Source: a virus. From it: a stretch of DNA of 21,219 nt. The stretch spans positions 1 to 21,219 of the IMG/VR virus record IMGVR_UViG_3300037088_001212; one strand, given 5' to 3'. Below are positions 7,104-21,219 of this stretch, in pieces. A program made the translations under genes and the position numbers. Under the pieces are notes generated by a model, which was given only the letters and a program-made list of their open reading frames with translations, was not told the DNA's origin and made no database searches. Numbering within the stretch: the first letter of the stretch is position 1; the number at the start of each line of letters is the position of its first letter.

Positions 7104-7453
7104 GGGCCGCCATGACGAATCCCACGCGGTTATCCCAGCTCTCCGGGCCCCGGTGCGCGCTGGTCCGACTCCTGCAAACAATCAACTTCGGCTATATCCA
7201 GGACCTCGATATTCGCGGCGGGGAGCCCGTGCTCGCGCCGGCGCCGACCGTCGTGATCGAAGTCAGACTCGACGCCGGTGTTAGCGAACGCCCCGAATCG
7301 ATGCTGGCTGACTACGATCTGAGGAGCGAGATCGTCCGGCTCATGGATCAGCTGGATGTCGTTCGGGATGGCTGGGTCCATCGAATCGACGTCCGTTTTG
7401 GAATCCCGCGTCGCGTCTTGATCGAGCGGGCACGCCAGGAGGTGCGTCGATGA
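7100..7453 (+). CDS. conserved unknown protein (117 aa)
   Basis: The ATG at 7100 overlaps the previous stop (ATGA); an alternative ATG at 7112, with GAGGG upstream, is also possible and would remove four residues. The protein has a recognisable layout: a helix (ALVRLLQTINFGYIQDL), a beta segment with DIRGGEPVLAPAPTVVIEV, then acidic helices (EIVRLMDQLDVVRDGW) and a basic C-terminus. From memory, an INFG-I-x-L ... GEPVL-x-P-P pattern recurs in small hypothetical proteins of Acidobacteria and Planctomycetes mobile elements, but I cannot name a family or function. It overlaps the sigma-like gene by four bases, and the two may act together. Confidence 0.7.
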   Translation: MRAAMTNPTRLSQLSGPRCALVRLLQTINFGYIQDLDIRGGEPVLAPAPTVVIEVRLDAGVSERPESMLADYDLRSEIVRLMDQLDVVRDGWVHRIDVRFGIPRRVLIERARQEVRR

Positions 7454-8025
7454 ACCCGGCGATGACGGCACCTCCTGCGGATTTCGCGCCGTTCTTGATC
7501 GAGCAAGCGAGACTCCGGGCAAGCCTGCTCCGCGCCAGCTTCGGTCTTGGATCGGACGAATGGGAAGACCTCCGCCAGGAACTGGCCATGGACTGTCTGC
7601 GGCGCCTGGTGAATTTTGATCCGGCGCGGAGTGACTGGCGACAGTTTGTGCACAGCGTGGTGCGGAATCACTCCTGTGTCTTGGCATCACGCCTTTCGGC
7701 GCGGCCGTCGATGTACCCGATCGATGTCGACGTCGACGCTGATCAGGCGGAAACCGTCGCGGACCGGGATTCCGATTACGAGGAAAACCGAGATGGCATC
7801 TCGTCGATCGAGCTGCAGATCGACGTGCGGCATGTGCTTGCCGGTCTTACCCCCGACCAGAGGGCAATCGCCCGCCTTCTTTCCCGGTTTTCGATGCGCG
7901 CTGTTCGGCGGATGACCGGGCTGAGCGCCGCGCAACTGGACCGGAGGCTTCGCCGCATTCGCGCCGCCTTTATTGCGGCGGGATTCCACCCAGTTGCGGA
8001 GCGGCTGAAAGGGGGCGAACGATGA
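7450..8025 (+). CDS. sigma-70-family-like protein (ECF-type)
   Basis: A 191-residue protein with the two-domain layout of small sigma factors. Residues ~36-82 resemble region 2: WEDLRQELAMDCLRRL, an FDP turn, then WRQFVHSVVRNH, as in the -10-binding and core-binding helices. An acidic linker (DVDVDADQAETVADRDSDYEE) follows. Residues ~130-182 resemble region 4: LTPDQRAIARLLSRF, then MRAVRRMTGLSAAQLDRRLR with a helix-turn-helix pattern. If functional it would redirect host RNA polymerase to element promoters; alternatively it is a sigma-derived DNA-binding regulator. Divergence in region 2 makes activity uncertain. Strong AGGAGGTG ribosome binding site at 7437-7444, with four-base overlaps to both neighbours. 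Confidence 0.72.
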   Translation: MNPAMTAPPADFAPFLIEQARLRASLLRASFGLGSDEWEDLRQELAMDCLRRLVNFDPARSDWRQFVHSVVRNHSCVLASRLSARPSMYPIDVDVDADQAETVADRDSDYEENRDGISSIELQIDVRHVLAGLTPDQRAIARLLSRFSMRAVRRMTGLSAAQLDRRLRRIRAAFIAAGFHPVAERLKGGER

Positions 8026-12951: not shown

Positions 12952-13989
12952 ATGCCGAGGTTTATTGATCATCTGCTGGCGGAGAAGAAGTGGCACGTCA
13001 GCGGGATGGGACTCCCGCCGTGGATGATTGCTGGCGGAGAGGTTCTAGTAAAACGTGTGGCCAGAACCCGTCGTATGCTCCATGGGTCCAACGTCGTCCT
13101 GATCGACAACGTGGCCGAATATTACTACTCCCACCACGTCGATGCGAAGCGTGGCCCGGATGGGCCGGAGCAGTTCCCGCAATTGGCCCCGCCCTTTCCG
13201 ATGGCATTCTACGAGTACACGCTCCCGCCCTGGATGTACGACACGCTTTTCACTGATGCAGAAAACGGGGCGCCACGCGCGCTGAATCAAGTCGGAGTGC
13301 TGGTCACCGCTGTGGAGACAAGCGACATCCATGTTAACCCGAGTGAGCACAGCCCGCTTTCCAGTGTTCTCAGTGAGTGTAAGATCGGGTTGCCGCCAAA
13401 ATGGTATCTATGCATTGAGCTGTTCGCTGGAGACCGCACAGATCGCATCCCCTGGTCTCCTGTCCTTCGGGTGGGCTTAACGGTCGATGCTGACGGCGCG
13501 CTCGCTTGTGATCCACGCTATGGCATCTGGGCACTCGATGACCGGATCACGGACAATTCGGCGATAGAACAACACCGTTTCTGGACATTGATGCCGCTTG
13601 TCTATCCGGCATTGCTGGCCAACTCGTTCCTGCACTGCCGCAACGTCAGCACGGAGGAGCATGTGCCGTCGGCCAAACTCAACAAGGCATATCTGAGACG
13701 CCACGGGCTGCCGCTCTTCCGTTACAAGACGCTCACCATAGAGCCGATGAAGCGCATCCTGCGCAAGGAGGGGCAGGTCGAAGCCAATGGCCTTTCCAAG
13801 GCACTTTACATCTGTCGCGGGCACTTCAAGGATTATCGGGAATCTGCCGGCCTTTTTGGAAAGCATAAAGGCCTTTTCTGGTGGGATATGCACGCACGGG
13901 GGGCCCTCGACCACGGTGTCGTGGTGAAGGATTACGCAATCAAACTGCCGAACTCACAGGCGGTGAACCCGCTGGAGACGCAGTCGTGA
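12952..13989 (+). CDS. conserved protein of unknown function (345 aa)
   Basis: Family not named here. ATG at 12952 follows GAGGA; nine bases separate it from the helicase, and its stop overlaps the primase GTG (GTGA, 13986-13989). The N-terminal ~120 residues are aromatic- and proline-rich (PPFPMAFYEYTLPPWMYD). The middle has alternating strands and helices. The C-terminal ~80 residues contain a basic segment with KALYICRGHFKDY followed by GLFGKHKGLFWWDMHARG, a block I remember from hypothetical proteins on mobile elements of many phyla. No nucleotide-binding or catalytic motif is evident; scattered cysteines do not form a clear pair. Position between helicase and primase suggests a replication role, by context only. 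Confidence 0.82.
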   Translation: MPRFIDHLLAEKKWHVSGMGLPPWMIAGGEVLVKRVARTRRMLHGSNVVLIDNVAEYYYSHHVDAKRGPDGPEQFPQLAPPFPMAFYEYTLPPWMYDTLFTDAENGAPRALNQVGVLVTAVETSDIHVNPSEHSPLSSVLSECKIGLPPKWYLCIELFAGDRTDRIPWSPVLRVGLTVDADGALACDPRYGIWALDDRITDNSAIEQHRFWTLMPLVYPALLANSFLHCRNVSTEEHVPSAKLNKAYLRRHGLPLFRYKTLTIEPMKRILRKEGQVEANGLSKALYICRGHFKDYRESAGLFGKHKGLFWWDMHARGALDHGVVVKDYAIKLPNSQAVNPLETQS

Positions 13990-16745
13990 CCGCCACGGCG
14001 ATAGATGTACAAGCCTATTACCGCCAAGTCACCGATATCGATATCGGTGAGATCGCCCGCGAGCTGTTGGCGGGCAGAATCACACAGCAATCAGCGCAGA
14101 CGCTCTTCTGCGACTGTCCGAACCACGGCAGCCAGTCTCATCTGTCTTTGCACGTCATGCTCGACAAGCAGGGTTGGTACTGCTTCGGCTGCGGTGTCGG
14201 CGGCGACGTGCTGCAGCTTGTTGAGTTTGTGCAGGCCGGCATGGTGACACGCGGCCAAACGGGCGTCATGCCGGAGTCGCATCGCCGGGCCCGCGACTTC
14301 TTGGCTGGTCGCGCCGGCTTGCCGCCCTTGTCGCAGATCGGTCGCTCGCCGCAAGAGATCGCCGAAGCGGAGGAGGAGCACCGGCTCACCTGGCGCGTGC
14401 GCGGAGCGCTCGCTGCGCTGGCGGAGATCTACCACCAGCGGCTGGTCGCCAACACCGAAGTCCTCTCCTGGTTCAAGTCGAAGTATGGCATTGGGGACGA
14501 GACCATCGCGCGATTGAAGATCGGCTTCGCTGACAACGAACCCGGCCTGGTGCCGGCACTGACGGACGGTGCCGGCGCCTTCACGCTGCGGGAATTGGCG
14601 GCGACCTCCGCATTCCGACCGACCGCGCAGGACGGGCTCTTCCCGTTCTTCGAAGGCCGGATCGTCTTTCCGTACTGGAGCCGCGGCAATGTCGTTTTCA
14701 TGATCGGCCGCCGCACGCCGTGGACCCCGGATCAGGAATGGGAGAAATCGAAGTACAAGAAACTGGCCGTCCGCAACGACCGCAACAACGACCATGTGGC
14801 GCAGTGCGTCCAGAACGACGTTTTGTACAACGAAGACATCCTGCTGGCACGCCCCGAGCGGGTGATCATCACCGAGGGTGTCACCGACTGCATCTCGCTC
14901 ATGGAGCATGGCTTCCCGGTAGTCTCACCGGTGACCGTGCAGATCCGCGAGGCGGATTGGGAGCGGCTGCTGCCGCGCCTCGCCGGCGTCAAAACGGTCT
15001 TCATCTGTCAGGACAACGAAGTTTCCGAGGCCGGCATGAACGGCGCGCTGAAGACCGCGCGCATCCTTTCCGCCAACGGGATCACCACGCGCGTGGCTGT
15101 ACTGCCGCTGGGCGAGAAACAACGCGCCGCGCGGGAGAAGCTGGCCGGAACGCAGGAAGGCACAGCAGCGGCGGACGCACTGTCGGCCGACGCCAAAATC
15201 GACGTTAACGAATATTTCGCCTCGGGCAAAACAGCGTCCGATTTCGAACAGATCCTCGCCGAGGCGCAGACGCCGCTCGAGATGGCGATCGCGGCGCTTT
15301 CGGTGGATACGCCGGACGCAGATTTGGCGCGCGTCCTTGGCCCGCTCCTGGCGGAGGTCGGGCAGCTTGATCCCATCCTGCAGCCGCGCCTATTGAAGCA
15401 GATCCAGGAGAAGTGCGGCAAGGATCGCCTGCCGATTACTGCCCTTCGCAAGCAGATGAAGGTCGTTCGAATTGACAGCAAGAAGAAGGCAGGCGGCAAG
15501 CGACCTGGCGCCGCGCGATCGCCCGGCCCGCAGCTCGCCGTGGCCGCGCAGCCGTCGGCGAATTGGCGTGACCTGCTGCTGCTCAACCTGAACAGCACAA
15601 TCAAGCCCCTGCTCGCGAATGCCATCACGGCCTTCCGCCATGCGCCGGAATGGTGCGGCGCGCTGGCGCACAACGAGTTCGCTCACGTCACCGTTCTTCA
15701 AAAACCTGCGCCGTGGATGCAGCTCGACACGGAACTCCCAGTAGAGTGGTCTCCAAACGATGACCTCCTCGCCACCGAATGGCTGCATCACCAGGACATT
15801 TCTGTCTCTTCGGATGTGACCGGCCAAGCTGTCGAAGCCGTTGGCCACGAGCGTCCGTTTCATCCGGTCAGAATCTACCTGAAGGATCTCGTGTGGGACG
15901 GTACGCATCGCCTGGAATCCTGGCTGGCCGACTATCTCGGCGCCGATCCGTCGCCGTACGTGGCCGCCGTCGGCTCGCGGTGGATGATTTCGGCGGTGGC
16001 ACGCATCTTTGAACCCGGGTGCAAAGCGGATTGCTGTCTGATTCTTGAGGGAGACCAAGGCATCAAGAAGTCGACCGCCCTGCGGGTGCTGGCACAGCCC
16101 TGGTTCACGGACGAGATCGCCGACCTTGGATCGAAAGACGCGGCGATGCAAACCCGCGGCGTCTGGGTCATTGAGATTGCGGAGCTGGAATCCTTGTCGC
16201 GCTCCGATGTCGGCAAGATTAAGGCGTTCATGAGCCGGGCGACGGACCGCTTCCGACCGCCTTACGGAAAACGGCTGATCGAATCCCCACGGCAATGCGT
16301 GTTCGCCGGCAGCGTCAACCACGGGACGTACCTGCGGGATGAAACCGGCGGACGCCGCTTCTGGCCAGTGGAGTGTAAAGCGCCGGCCATCGACGTGGAT
16401 GGGCTGGCGGGGTGCCGGGACCAGCTGTGGGCCGAAGCCACAGCGCTCTATTTCGACGGGAAGCCGTGGTGGCTGGACTCGGTAGCCCTGAATCGGGAGG
16501 CGGCCTCAGAACAATCGGACCGATACGAGGGTGACCCTTGGGACGAACTGATTCTGAAATGGATCGAAGATCGCGAGTCGGTGTCGATCATGGACGTGCT
16601 GAGCGTGTGCCTGGAAAAAAAGAAGGACACTTGGGCGCAGTGGGATAAAACCCGCGTCGCGCGGTGTCTTCGCGCGCAAGGGTGGAAGCGGTTCAACGCA
16701 CGCACTGGTTCATTGCGGGAGTGGCGATACCGGCGCTCAGAGTGA
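13986..16745 (+). CDS. CHC2/Toprim primase fused to VapE-type helicase
   Basis: A 919-residue replication protein started by GTG at 13986 (overlapping the upstream stop; GGAG about 10 bases upstream). The N-terminal CHC2-type zinc finger has Cys44, His47, Cys66 and Cys69 (FCDCPNH and WYCFGCGVGGD). A primase middle region follows, with a Toprim domain: Glu297 in ITEGVTD and Asp343/Glu345 in ICQDNE. The C-terminal half is a virulence-associated-E (VapE)/D5-like ATPase: Walker A GDQGIKKST (689-697), where a second lysine replaces the usual glycine, and VWVIEIAEL with Glu730. It should synthesise primers and unwind the origin or fork, letting the element replicate with little host help. Intact length and motifs argue for function. 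A perfect palindrome lies within codons 15-22. Confidence 0.93.
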   Translation: MTATAIDVQAYYRQVTDIDIGEIARELLAGRITQQSAQTLFCDCPNHGSQSHLSLHVMLDKQGWYCFGCGVGGDVLQLVEFVQAGMVTRGQTGVMPESHRRARDFLAGRAGLPPLSQIGRSPQEIAEAEEEHRLTWRVRGALAALAEIYHQRLVANTEVLSWFKSKYGIGDETIARLKIGFADNEPGLVPALTDGAGAFTLRELAATSAFRPTAQDGLFPFFEGRIVFPYWSRGNVVFMIGRRTPWTPDQEWEKSKYKKLAVRNDRNNDHVAQCVQNDVLYNEDILLARPERVIITEGVTDCISLMEHGFPVVSPVTVQIREADWERLLPRLAGVKTVFICQDNEVSEAGMNGALKTARILSANGITTRVAVLPLGEKQRAAREKLAGTQEGTAAADALSADAKIDVNEYFASGKTASDFEQILAEAQTPLEMAIAALSVDTPDADLARVLGPLLAEVGQLDPILQPRLLKQIQEKCGKDRLPITALRKQMKVVRIDSKKKAGGKRPGAARSPGPQLAVAAQPSANWRDLLLLNLNSTIKPLLANAITAFRHAPEWCGALAHNEFAHVTVLQKPAPWMQLDTELPVEWSPNDDLLATEWLHHQDISVSSDVTGQAVEAVGHERPFHPVRIYLKDLVWDGTHRLESWLADYLGADPSPYVAAVGSRWMISAVARIFEPGCKADCCLILEGDQGIKKSTALRVLAQPWFTDEIADLGSKDAAMQTRGVWVIEIAELESLSRSDVGKIKAFMSRATDRFRPPYGKRLIESPRQCVFAGSVNHGTYLRDETGGRRFWPVECKAPAIDVDGLAGCRDQLWAEATALYFDGKPWWLDSVALNREAASEQSDRYEGDPWDELILKWIEDRESVSIMDVLSVCLEKKKDTWAQWDKTRVARCLRAQGWKRFNARTGSLREWRYRRSE
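14029..14050. promoter_or_regulatory. perfect 22-bp palindrome inside primase 5' end
   Basis: The segment is the 11-mer TCACCGATATC followed by its exact reverse complement GATATCGGTGA, centred between 14039 and 14040. It starts 43 bases after the primase start codon and encodes part of VTDIDIGE. A perfect palindrome of this length is unlikely by chance alone, although repeated Asp-Ile codons make it easier. It could be an operator, an origin element, or an mRNA hairpin reducing translation. No second copy was seen in the window. Confidence 0.45.
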
Positions 16746-16750
16746 AATGT

Positions 16751-16845
16751 TGGTTCCAGTCTCGGCTTTGGTTCCAGTCTGGTTCCAGTCTCTGGTTCCA
16801 GTCTAACTCGTTGATTTTGCAGGTTGGTTCCAGTGGTTCCACTCT
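16751..16845 (+). repeat. direct-repeat array TGGTTCCAGTCT (iteron-like)
   Basis: Starting six bases after the primase stop, TGGTTCCAGTCT occurs exactly at 16751-16762, 16769-16780, 16780-16791 and 16793-16804. Shorter or degenerate copies follow at 16825-16834 (TGGTTCCAGT) and 16834-16845 (TGGTTCCActct). Spacing is irregular (18, 11, 13, 32 and 9 bases between starts), unlike classical evenly phased iterons. All copies are in one orientation and lie in non-coding DNA, followed by an AT-rich patch at about 16851-16920. The array may be the origin recognised by the primase-helicase, or a binding array for a regulator. Confidence 0.75.
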
Positions 16846-16915
16846 ACCCCTTATCACGCGTAGAGATAAAAAACAGCATATGATGAGCATACACATACAC
16901 ACACGTAATTATTAT
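16846..16915. other. AT-rich patch next to the repeat array
   Basis: This stretch is strikingly AT-rich for the window, with AGATAAAAAACAGCATATGA, alternating ACACATACACACACG and TAATTATTATG. It directly follows the TGGTTCCAGTCT array. AT-rich DNA next to repeated binding sites is the layout of many replication origins (duplex unwinding element), and it could equally hold a promoter for the following gene. I saw no convincing DnaA box. Confidence 0.4.
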
Positions 16916-17683
16916 GGGAAGTTTAGCGGAACCACTTCGGATGGTGTACCACTGGTACCTAAGCGGACAACTCCCATCCGCTCAGATGCTTGCGTGGTTC
17001 CAGTCTCACTTTCGGCGGGGCTCGTCACTGGAACCAGACTGGAACCAGAGGCCTCCCAGCAGCCGAGACCGGCCGCGCTGTTCGTATCCACCTCCCTCGA
17101 CACTTGGATGACGGATCACGCGGGAGCATTCAACCGCGACGTCCAGATCAACGACACCGCCTACCGGCGGCTCGATCCCGAGTATTACGCCTGGCTGCGC
17201 AGCAAGATGCACATGGCGAAACTGGCCGCCCTCGCCGGGCAGCTTGCCCAGGAACCGTTTGACGTGCTGCGCGACAGCTTCAACCGGATCCACGAGTGGG
17301 CGATGGTGCATTTCGGAGAAACGATGCTGGGCGAAGCCGTGCGCACCCTGGATGCGAGGGATTACGGGCCGCCCGTGGTCGAGCCGTGGGATCGCCACGA
17401 AACACCGACCGCGGCCGGAAAGGCCGTCGCTCACCCAGAAGCGCTCGCCATGGTCGATGCCATCCAGGAGCAAGCGATCAGCCTGGGCTGGAAACAAGAA
17501 CGGCTCTACGCGCTGGGCAAGCCACAAAGCCCGCTCCGCGGGCTGGCATCGTATTTGAATCCCGGTGACCGTATCGGTGCCGTCACGCGCGAAGCCATAG
17601 AGATCATCCTGCCGAGCGGGGTGCGTCAGCACTTCTACAATCCCGACGTCGAGCAGCCCTGGATCACACGCGAGAAAAGTTGA
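16880..17683 (+). CDS. hypothetical protein downstream of primase (about 267 aa)
   Basis: Unknown protein with a doubtful start. The frame is open far upstream into the primase gene, where it reads the repeat array as WFQS units and is surely not coding. I chose the tandem ATGs at 16880/16883, but the ribosome binding site is weak and residues 1-75 look poorly structured and still contain copies of the repeat; ATG at 17108 is an alternative giving about 191 residues. From there on the protein looks genuine: YRRLDPEYYAWLRSKMHMAK, an amphipathic helical region to about residue 155, then conserved-looking GLASYLNPGDRIGAVTREA and a beta-rich C-terminus. No catalytic motif. The stop lies in copy 2 of the 42-bp repeat. 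Confidence 0.7.
   Translation: MMSIHIHTRNYYGKFSGTTSDGVPLVPKRTTPIRSDACVVPVSLSAGLVTGTRLEPEASQQPRPAALFVSTSLDTWMTDHAGAFNRDVQINDTAYRRLDPEYYAWLRSKMHMAKLAALAGQLAQEPFDVLRDSFNRIHEWAMVHFGETMLGEAVRTLDARDYGPPVVEPWDRHETPTAAGKAVAHPEALAMVDAIQEQAISLGWKQERLYALGKPQSPLRGLASYLNPGDRIGAVTREAIEIILPSGVRQHFYNPDVEQPWITREKS
16995..17047. repeat. further TGGTTCCAGTCT copies in inverted arrangement
   Basis: One exact forward copy, TGGTTCCAGTCT (16995-17006), faces two reverse copies, ACTGGAACCA (17027-17036) and AGACTGGAACCA (17036-17047). The forward copy and the last reverse copy could pair as a 12-bp stem with a ~29-base loop. These copies lie in the uncertain 5' part of the following gene and extend the upstream array, for nine clear or near-complete copies over about 300 bases. 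Confidence 0.65.
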
Positions 17684-20150: not shown

Positions 20151-21219
20151 TTGCAAACAATCAAACTGCCAACCAGCATCGAGCTGCGGCCGATCGGGGA
20201 TTTGCTGCCGTTTACCCGCAACTCGCGCACGCATTCGGAGGCTCAGGTGGCTCAAGTCGCGGCATCGATCATGGAGTTCGGGTTCGTCAACCCGGTTCTG
20301 GTCGGGGCCGACGGCGTGATTATTGCCGGCCACGCCCGGGTGCTGGCGGCGCGCAAGCTGGGCTTGGCCGAGGTGCCGGTCATCGTGCTCGGACACTTGT
20401 CGGAGACGCAGCGCCGGGCCCTGGTGATTGCCGACAACAAGCTGGCCATGAACGCAGGGTGGGATGAGGAGATTCTTCGCGAGGAGATGCAGGCGGTCGA
20501 AGCAGCGGGCTTCGACCTCGACCTCGTGGGCTTCAGCGACGAAGAGATCCGCGCGTTGATGGCCGATGCGGCGGGCCAGGCGGAGACCGCTGCGACGGAA
20601 GCTGTTGACGAGGTGCCGGAGCCGCCGGTCAATCCGGTCACCCGCGCCGGCGACATCTGGGTGATCGGCCGGCACCGGTTGATATGCGGAGACTGCCGCG
20701 ACCTGGCCGTTGTAAAGGCGGTCCTAAACGGTGCGGCCGTGAACGTGGCCATCACGTCGCCGCCGTACGCCACGCAGCGCGAGTACGATCCGTCGAGCGG
20801 CTTCAAGCCGATCCCGCCGGACGAGTACGTGGATTGGTTCCGCGCGGTGGCGGGCAACGTCCAAGCAGTGCTGGCCGCCGATGGCTCGTGGCTCGTCAAC
20901 ATCAAAGCCCACGCGGAAAACGGCGAACGCCACCTCTACACGCTGGACTTGGTCATCGCACACAAACGGCAGTGGGGCTGGCGCTACGTCGACGAGTTCT
21001 GCTGGCGCAAGACCGACAACGGAGTGCCTGGAGGGTGGCCTAACCGCTTCAAGAATGCTTGGGAACCGGTACATCACTTCAGTCGCCAAGCGGACATCAA
21101 ATTCAACGCGCTGGCTTGTGGCACCGCGTCGGACTACTGCTTCGACTACTCGCCGCACAATCCTAAATCGGCCTCGGGGAGCGGTCTGCTGGGGACGGGC
21201 CCACGCGGTGCATATGCTT
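20151..21219 (+). CDS. ParB-like domain fused to DNA methyltransferase (3' truncated)
   Basis: Runs off the window; at least 356 residues are encoded. The N-terminal part (about 1-100) is a ParB/Srx-like domain: IELRPIGDLLPFTRNSRTHS, AASIMEFGFVNPVLV, GVIIAGHARVLAARKLG and LVIADNKLAMNAGWDE. A linker precedes the methyltransferase domain, with ICGDCRD and the catalytic TSPPY motif at residues 202-206, which points to an N4-cytosine or N6-adenine DNA methyltransferase; the SAM-binding FxGxG-type motif should lie beyond the window. Such fusions are common in phages, next to terminase genes, where they modify phage DNA against host restriction. I chose TTG at 20151 because family members begin just there, and an in-frame stop at 20121 allows no ATG upstream. 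Confidence 0.92.
   Translation, partial: MQTIKLPTSIELRPIGDLLPFTRNSRTHSEAQVAQVAASIMEFGFVNPVLVGADGVIIAGHARVLAARKLGLAEVPVIVLGHLSETQRRALVIADNKLAMNAGWDEEILREEMQAVEAAGFDLDLVGFSDEEIRALMADAAGQAETAATEAVDEVPEPPVNPVTRAGDIWVIGRHRLICGDCRDLAVVKAVLNGAAVNVAITSPPYATQREYDPSSGFKPIPPDEYVDWFRAVAGNVQAVLAADGSWLVNIKAHAENGERHLYTLDLVIAHKRQWGWRYVDEFCWRKTDNGVPGGWPNRFKNAWEPVHHFSRQADIKFNALACGTASDYCFDYSPHNPKSASGSGLLGTGPRGAYA

Follow-up and report, generated by a model that had tools for sequence, protein, structure and literature searches.

The DNA analyzed here (the window, 21,219 nucleotides in full) is a viral contig that ends before the late (terminase/head) region. Its primase-helicase gene has, on the 5′ side, genes for RecD2-like, ERCC4, DUF669, AAA_24, and PDDEXK proteins and for a large serine integrase and, on the 3′ side, genes for an HNH endonuclease and a ParB-methyltransferase. 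The start codon of the primase-helicase is uncertain, and its relatives align from about residue 26–42 onward. An ORF of 345 residues (12952–13989; PHROG 20769, of unknown function) overlaps the start of the primase ORF and has a homologue in none of the near relatives' loci, and another of 191 residues (7450–8025) has, by eye, a likeness to small sigma factors and no Pfam match. The primase-helicase gene ends 5 bp before an array of short repeats, the first of which begins 6 bp past the stop codon. The features are as follows:

13881–16745, + strand: primase-helicase gene, the putative initiator (Pfam, PDB, Foldseek); the ORF start is given
16533–16736, + strand: C-terminal winged-helix domain, putative iteron-binding domain (AlphaFold2)
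16695–16703, + strand: codons 939 (AAC, Asn) and 941 (CGC, Arg) in the first wing strand, candidate specificity determinants for iteron bases 5 and 2 (column association, tree, and pair control)
16751–16762, + strand: iteron 1, TGGTTCCAGTCT, exact
16769–16780, + strand: iteron 2, TGGTTCCAGTCT, exact
16780–16791, + strand: iteron 3, TGGTTCCAGTCT, exact
16793–16804, + strand: iteron 4, TGGTTCCAGTCT, exact
16825–16836, + strand: iteron 5, near copy TGGTTCCAGTGG, first of a pair 9 bp apart
16834–16845, + strand: iteron 6, near copy TGGTTCCACTCT
16846–16922: AT-rich center between the two iteron sets, putative melting site (A+T content)
16880–17683, + strand: next ORF, 267 residues, sharing its 5′ part with the right half of the array
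16887–16907: alternating purine-pyrimidine tract of 21 nt, GCATACACATACACACACGTA, within the center
16923–16934, − strand: iteron 7, inverted, imperfect, TGGTTCCGCTAA
16951–16961, − strand: decayed inverted copy TAGGTACCAGT (from sequence; relatives have an intact inverted copy there)
16995–17006, + strand: iteron 8, forward, TGGTTCCAGTCT, exact
17025–17036, − strand: iteron 9, inverted, near copy TGGTTCCAGTGA
17036–17047, − strand: iteron 10, inverted, TGGTTCCAGTCT, exact
20151–21218: ParB_N-methyltransferase gene

The first-pass annotation described positions 16751–17047 as a repeat array with an AT-rich patch, and both are borne out. The unit TGGTTCCAGTCT has 12 matches with at most two mismatches in the whole window, nine of them inside the array, compared with 0.92 ± 0.90 expected, and none of 100 shuffles reached 12. 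When the whole sequence was scanned in windows of 400 nt, the top repeat score was that of the array (9.6), the best elsewhere being 5.0 and the median 3.4. The gap between the two iteron sets is 62% A+T, compared with 38% for the window. The tenth, inverted and imperfect copy at 16923–16934 and the decayed one near 16951–16961 are additions to the copies listed earlier. GC skew, which had been proposed as a check, shows no clear switch around the array.

The array had also been said to disturb the start of the following gene, and its right half does lie within the 5′ part of ORF 16880–17683. This ORF has no Pfam or PHROG match but is conserved in relatives, with an N-terminal NYYGK/SYRK; the apparently disturbed start arises because the right half of the array sits inside the 5′ part of the next ORF in most of them. 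The frame through the right half is broken in two relatives (L062 and L070). The right half of the array encodes the first ∼55 codons of the ORF, and the N terminus of the ORF varies by iteron class (GTLEH, GPRGP, and others).

Loci of relatives of the primase-helicase were drawn from genome and viral collections, comprising viral contigs and bacterial genomes, and an array behind the primase-VapE gene, which the first-pass annotation proposed to seek in related elements, is present in all 26 distinct near relatives. It lies directly 3′ of the gene and has a common layout: four direct copies, two further direct copies 8–9 bp apart, an AT-rich center of alternating purines and pyrimidines, and then inverted, forward, and inverted copies. 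The distances between successive copies in the window (18, 11, 13, 32, and 9) are uneven, as had been noted, but the spacing itself is largely conserved, being about 18, 11–12, 12–13, 32–33 (longer in the AGGTCCAC/AGGTGCAC classes), and 8–9 in the relatives. In every full-length relative the array is 3′ of the gene and the order and spacing of the sites are largely kept, but the unit differs; units differ among elements, whereas within one element all of the copies change together. The units seen are TGGTTCCAGTCT, GTGTTCCAGTCT, GCGTCCCAGTCT, AGGTCCACGTCT, AGGTGCACGTGG, and TGGTGCGCGTGG, with the following distribution:

TGGTTCCAGTCT: the window and L008; nearly identical in L055
GTGTTCCAGTCT: ten loci, with slight variation; plus ATGTTCCAGTCT in L073
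G[CT]GTCCCAGTCT: L004, L062, L070
AGGTCCACGTNN: L059–L061, L063, L067, L069
AGGTGCACGTGG: L016, L065, L066
TGGTGCGCGTGG: L234

The strongest repeat window is at the 3′ end of the helicase gene in all 19 loci scanned at full length (one gene further in L126). The median A+T content of the centers across loci is 0.56 versus 0.37, and their alternating purine-pyrimidine runs, which could form Z-DNA, have a median at the 99.3rd percentile of the locus. Tracts of this kind occur in the centers of most relatives and are often long (37 nt in L241; also in L126, L003, and L004, and CGCGCGCGCACGCG in others). In a sample of Acidobacteriota genomes, 10 of 396 had a match, mostly distant, with few near relatives. 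The Terriglobia MAG that contains L008 (G006) has further VapE copies (L122–L124), two with an in-frame stop, which suggests that these are decayed prophages.

A single unit common to all copies of an element is what homogenization would yield, and the array could on that account be a functionless low-complexity or repeat expansion maintained by slippage or gene conversion. This is the least probable of the explanations considered, and it is hardly to be credited: positions, orientations, and spacings are retained while the spacers diverge, and it is contradicted by the covariation of the unit with two residues of the adjoining protein, described below.

The order of domains in the primase-helicase is a CHC2 zinc finger, a DnaG-type core with Toprim, a VapE/Rep-type helicase, and a C-terminal winged helix, and its Pfam matches are VapE-like_dom (E = 4e-79), Zn_ribbon_DnaG, and Toprim_2. 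The helicase half is homologous to PriRep1 (PDB 7pds, solved as six chains on double-stranded DNA), with E = 2.8e-83 by sequence profile and E = 1e-31 and a TM score of about 0.78 by Foldseek. AlphaFold2 modeling of the C-terminal domain with 23 homologues (mean pLDDT 82) gives three helices and a two-stranded wing, and a 394-residue model agrees. The first of the predicted wing strands (residues ∼935–942) contains residues 939 and 941, and the second spans residues 945–952; across near relatives the recognition helix is almost unchanged. For the isolated domain, Foldseek matches to winged helices are weak, the best having E = 0.037; 7pds chains are among the highest ranked.

Covariation between protein and unit was examined in 27 distinct loci (the window and 26 relatives), using the 572 variable columns of the 954-residue protein and a gapless 12-base register. 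In this register, the final residues of the protein predict which class of unit accompanies it. Residue 941 corresponds one-to-one with base 2 in 27 of 27 loci, Arg occurring with G in 13 and Gly with C or T in 14, and is the sole such column among the 572. Residue 939 is the best column for base 5 (score 0.85 versus 0.42 for the next), with Asn accompanying T in 14 loci, Lys or Arg accompanying C in 9, and Tyr accompanying G in 4. Arg with G, and on the other strand Asn with A and Lys or Arg with G, would be chemically sensible protein-DNA contacts. On a tree of the helicase body (37 tips), from which the C-terminal 75 residues were excluded, about seven changes are counted for base 2 and about seven for residue 941, and seven of seven path-independent pairs are concordant in the expected direction; the only tip at which the two mismatch is L241. 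At base 5, all six independent core pairs differ in residue 939, a property shared only by the hypervariable N-terminal residues 32/33. Agreement at bases 7–8 of the unit was discarded as part of a code: several distant columns match equally well, and these bases are therefore confounded with phylogeny.

The register used to extend the comparison to distant proteins, NNGTNC, was picked after the units were known, and these transfer tests are therefore not strictly blind; in them the code fits L232, L243, L231, L263, L125, L126, and L268. It fails at both bases in L241, where the wing is one residue shorter, and at base 5 in L393, and it does not hold for L127 and L128, two distant plasmid proteins. 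In the Q939 group (L233 and L260–L262) the register of the unit is ambiguous. The C-terminal tip and roughly ten repeats changing together look like a simple protein-DNA recognition code, and the covariation points to the primase-helicase itself as the protein that binds the array.

These data bear on two other possible roles for the array. Initiators often regulate neighboring genes, and the location of the right half in the 5′ part of the next ORF means that a bound protein would also affect expression of that ORF. The array might therefore be an operator through which the primase-helicase or a phage repressor controls the following or late genes, with no start of replication, but this is improbable. 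The primase-helicase is the only protein with residues that track the repeat unit: a seemingly perfect match of column 175 of the downstream protein to base 2, seen in 13 loci only, was lost in a full-length alignment of 27 loci, and with it the case for an operator of that protein, and when the other proteins of the locus were compared in a coarser local alignment, none had a comparable column for base 5. Furthermore, arrays lie 3′ of VapE genes in phages and plasmids despite quite different downstream genes, and an AT-rich center between two opposed iteron sets is the layout of an origin (PMC6092414).

It is more doubtful still that a different phage protein, such as the ParB-like-methyltransferase fusion encoded at 20151–21218, binds the array as a site of partition/segregation, packaging, or recombination, although repeat clusters can serve as partition or packaging sites. 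The ParB-like protein has homologues in 24 loci but no column that tracks the bases well (best 0.44 for base 2 and 0.36 for base 5), the serine integrase, encoded at the opposite end of the window, could be matched to a homologue in just two loci, and the array stays with the helicase gene.

The earlier reading of a replication origin tied to the primase/VapE helicase is supported by the conserved position of the array and by the protein-DNA covariation, and 16751–17047 is very probably the replication origin of the phage, bound by its own primase-helicase. Replication of a temperate tailed phage would start at this site. The C-terminal winged helix of the primase-helicase would bind each 9–12-bp iteron, with wing residues 939 and 941 reading base pairs 5 and 2 and the nearly constant recognition helix probably reading the constant bases of the unit. 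The two iteron sets, the left direct and the right mainly inverted, would gather two helicase hexamers around the AT-rich center, which would melt and be the site at which the helicases are loaded; the fused primase would then prime both forks, making replication bidirectional. The array, its position and conserved layout, the joint change of its copies, the covariation, and the PriRep1 homology are observed, whereas binding, melting, helicase loading, two-hexamer assembly, and the direction of replication are inferred. Counting against this reading are the lack of a clear GC-skew switch, the proteins for which the code fails, and the distant VapE genes described below that have no array close behind them.

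Comparison of close relatives indicates how the specificity of such an origin may switch, the switch being a single-base change in every aligned iteron. In L065 and L069, whose gene bodies are 92% identical, base 5 agrees at 0 of 11 aligned sites, as opposed to 11 of 11 for each of bases 4, 6, and 7; L003 versus L004 and the window versus L073 show the same kind of pattern, at base 5 and base 2. Among pairs with a body identity of at least 0.90, the spacers between iterons are 79% identical when the two loci are of the same class but 62% when they are of different classes, whereas the identity of the downstream gene depends little on class (90 and 86%, respectively); in L059 and L066, for example, the identities are 0.954 for the body, 0.562 for the spacers, and 0.905 downstream. 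The divergence of the spacers, but not of the downstream gene, with class suggests that the end of the gene and the origin are sometimes swapped as one cassette; because the pairs are not independent, the comparison is a hint rather than a test. A broader proposal, which we regard as somewhat better than evenly balanced, is that phage (and some plasmid) initiators carry a two-residue DNA code in the C-terminal wing and that origin specificity has switched repeatedly among lineages through changes in one or two wing residues, accompanied by a change of the same base in all of the about ten iterons, in part by exchange of gene-end/origin cassettes. If this code is true, closely related phages would be incompatible replicons and the origin of a new element would be predictable from its protein sequence.

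Beyond the near relatives, many VapE genes have an array of another unit behind them, including those of Marinobacter phage PS3, Pseudomonas phages U5, Haddon, and LPPA36 (one or more genes further), Komagataeibacter, Gluconobacter, and Roseomonas plasmids, and Paenibacillus phage Bob, among others. The Gluconobacter oxydans plasmid pGO128 (L128; 4340 bp, five annotated genes) encodes a VapE-type protein followed by repeats of TAGTGCTG; as it has no other obvious Rep, VapE is probably its initiator. Within ∼1.1 kb 3′ of some distant VapE genes (L266–L282, L289–L291, L394, L395, and L398), no array was found; the phages without one near VapE include Achromobacter phage Mano, Streptococcus phage Javan100, and Rhodobacter phage RcPeripeteia. 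L266–L282 and L289–L291 are a clade of VapE phage genes, with the protein tail LKWPRRRR, that lack a detectable array within this distance, and their origin may lie elsewhere.

Some loci share only the primase half, which is fused to an unrelated C-terminal portion. In 25 of 28 such loci scanned, the highest-scoring repeat window of the locus is a dense array 1.4 to 4.1 kb past the primase, and the array begins at the 3′ end of the fused gene in most of those where that gene was traceable. Loci of this type with an array are L011, L012, L014, L018, L020, L024, L028, L029, L037, L041, L074–L076, L079, L080, L083–L085, L091, L097, L102, L107, and L204, and their units include TGCGAAGG, GGAGACGT, TGGGGACC, GTAGAAAG, and GGTGAAAG, among others. 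The array begins within ∼30 nt of the stop of the fused ORF in L018, L020, L041, L083, L085, L080, and L204. Neither PDB nor Pfam yields a helicase match for the C-terminal half in L018, except for a weak AAA one.

The replication origins of most uncultured phages are unknown. Since the position, layout, and unit of the array follow from the initiator gene, origins can be annotated from sequence in many VapE phages and plasmids. The covariation also bears on how a self-loading helicase recognizes its origin and on how replicon incompatibility evolves, which is usually studied in only a few plasmids.

The window is a tailed-phage fragment. Relatives in which the gene order is similar have genes for the terminase large subunit (L070, L062, and L069), terminase small subunit (L069), portal (L062), and head protease (L062 and L069), and are therefore tailed phages rather than satellites. 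The large subunits were found with PHROG profiles; a search with PF03354 gave no match because they belong to a different terminase family. A phage-inducible element of the PICI type is a satellite without its own terminase large subunit and capsid genes, a description that, judged from the relatives, does not apply here. Thus, the predicted origin would work like a PICI origin, but the element itself is, on gene content, a phage.

The suggestion that the array might represent a wholly new type of origin does not hold, as the layout is that of published PICI/SaPI origins (PMC6092414, PMC7581432). PICI origins have two iteron sets around an AT-rich region 3′ of rep and drive plasmid replication, and in 2018 this type of origin was called common to no other known replicon (PMC6092414). 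In SaPIs, the C-terminal domain of the Rep helicase recognizes iterons directly 3′ of its gene (PMC7581432). The present array likewise has iteron sets around an AT-rich region immediately 3′ of a primase-helicase gene, and its initiator belongs with the Rep/PriRep helicases through its homology to PriRep1 (7pds); the covariation of residues 939 and 941 with the unit would place specificity, and probably origin recognition, in the C-terminal domain here as well. The differences are that the arrays described here occur in complete tailed phages (from the relatives) rather than satellites, the primase part is of the DnaG/Toprim type, the iteron unit and wing residues switch repeatedly, the center is often an alternating purine-pyrimidine tract, and the right half overlaps the next coding sequence.

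The α protein of phage P4 combines a primase-helicase with a winged helix that binds the origin, and the P4 ori contains short iterons; the present system is similar in its short iterons and in its winged helix, which is predicted to bind the origin. However, P4 requires a second, distant site (crr), and its primase is of a different family; no second iteron cluster of the crr type was seen in the 21-kb window, although such a cluster could lie in the absent late region. In classical iteron plasmid origins of the RepA/RepE type, the direct repeats are evenly spaced and the Rep lacks helicase activity. They are similar in that repeated initiator sites adjoin an AT-rich melting element, but regular direct iterons in helical phase are not what is found here, where the units are short and unevenly spaced (18, 11, 13, 32, and 9) and the right-hand copies are opposed. 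In the putative origin of SCCmec, the isolated C-terminal domain of Cch2 binds its direct repeats 3′ of the helicase gene (PMC7581432), as would be expected of the domain described here, but that origin has only three 5-nt iterons, a helicase of a different family, and a separate primase. A search of open-access papers for VapE together with iterons found no phage origin of this kind. What is new here is the spread of the PICI type of origin to ordinary tailed phages, together with the recognition code.
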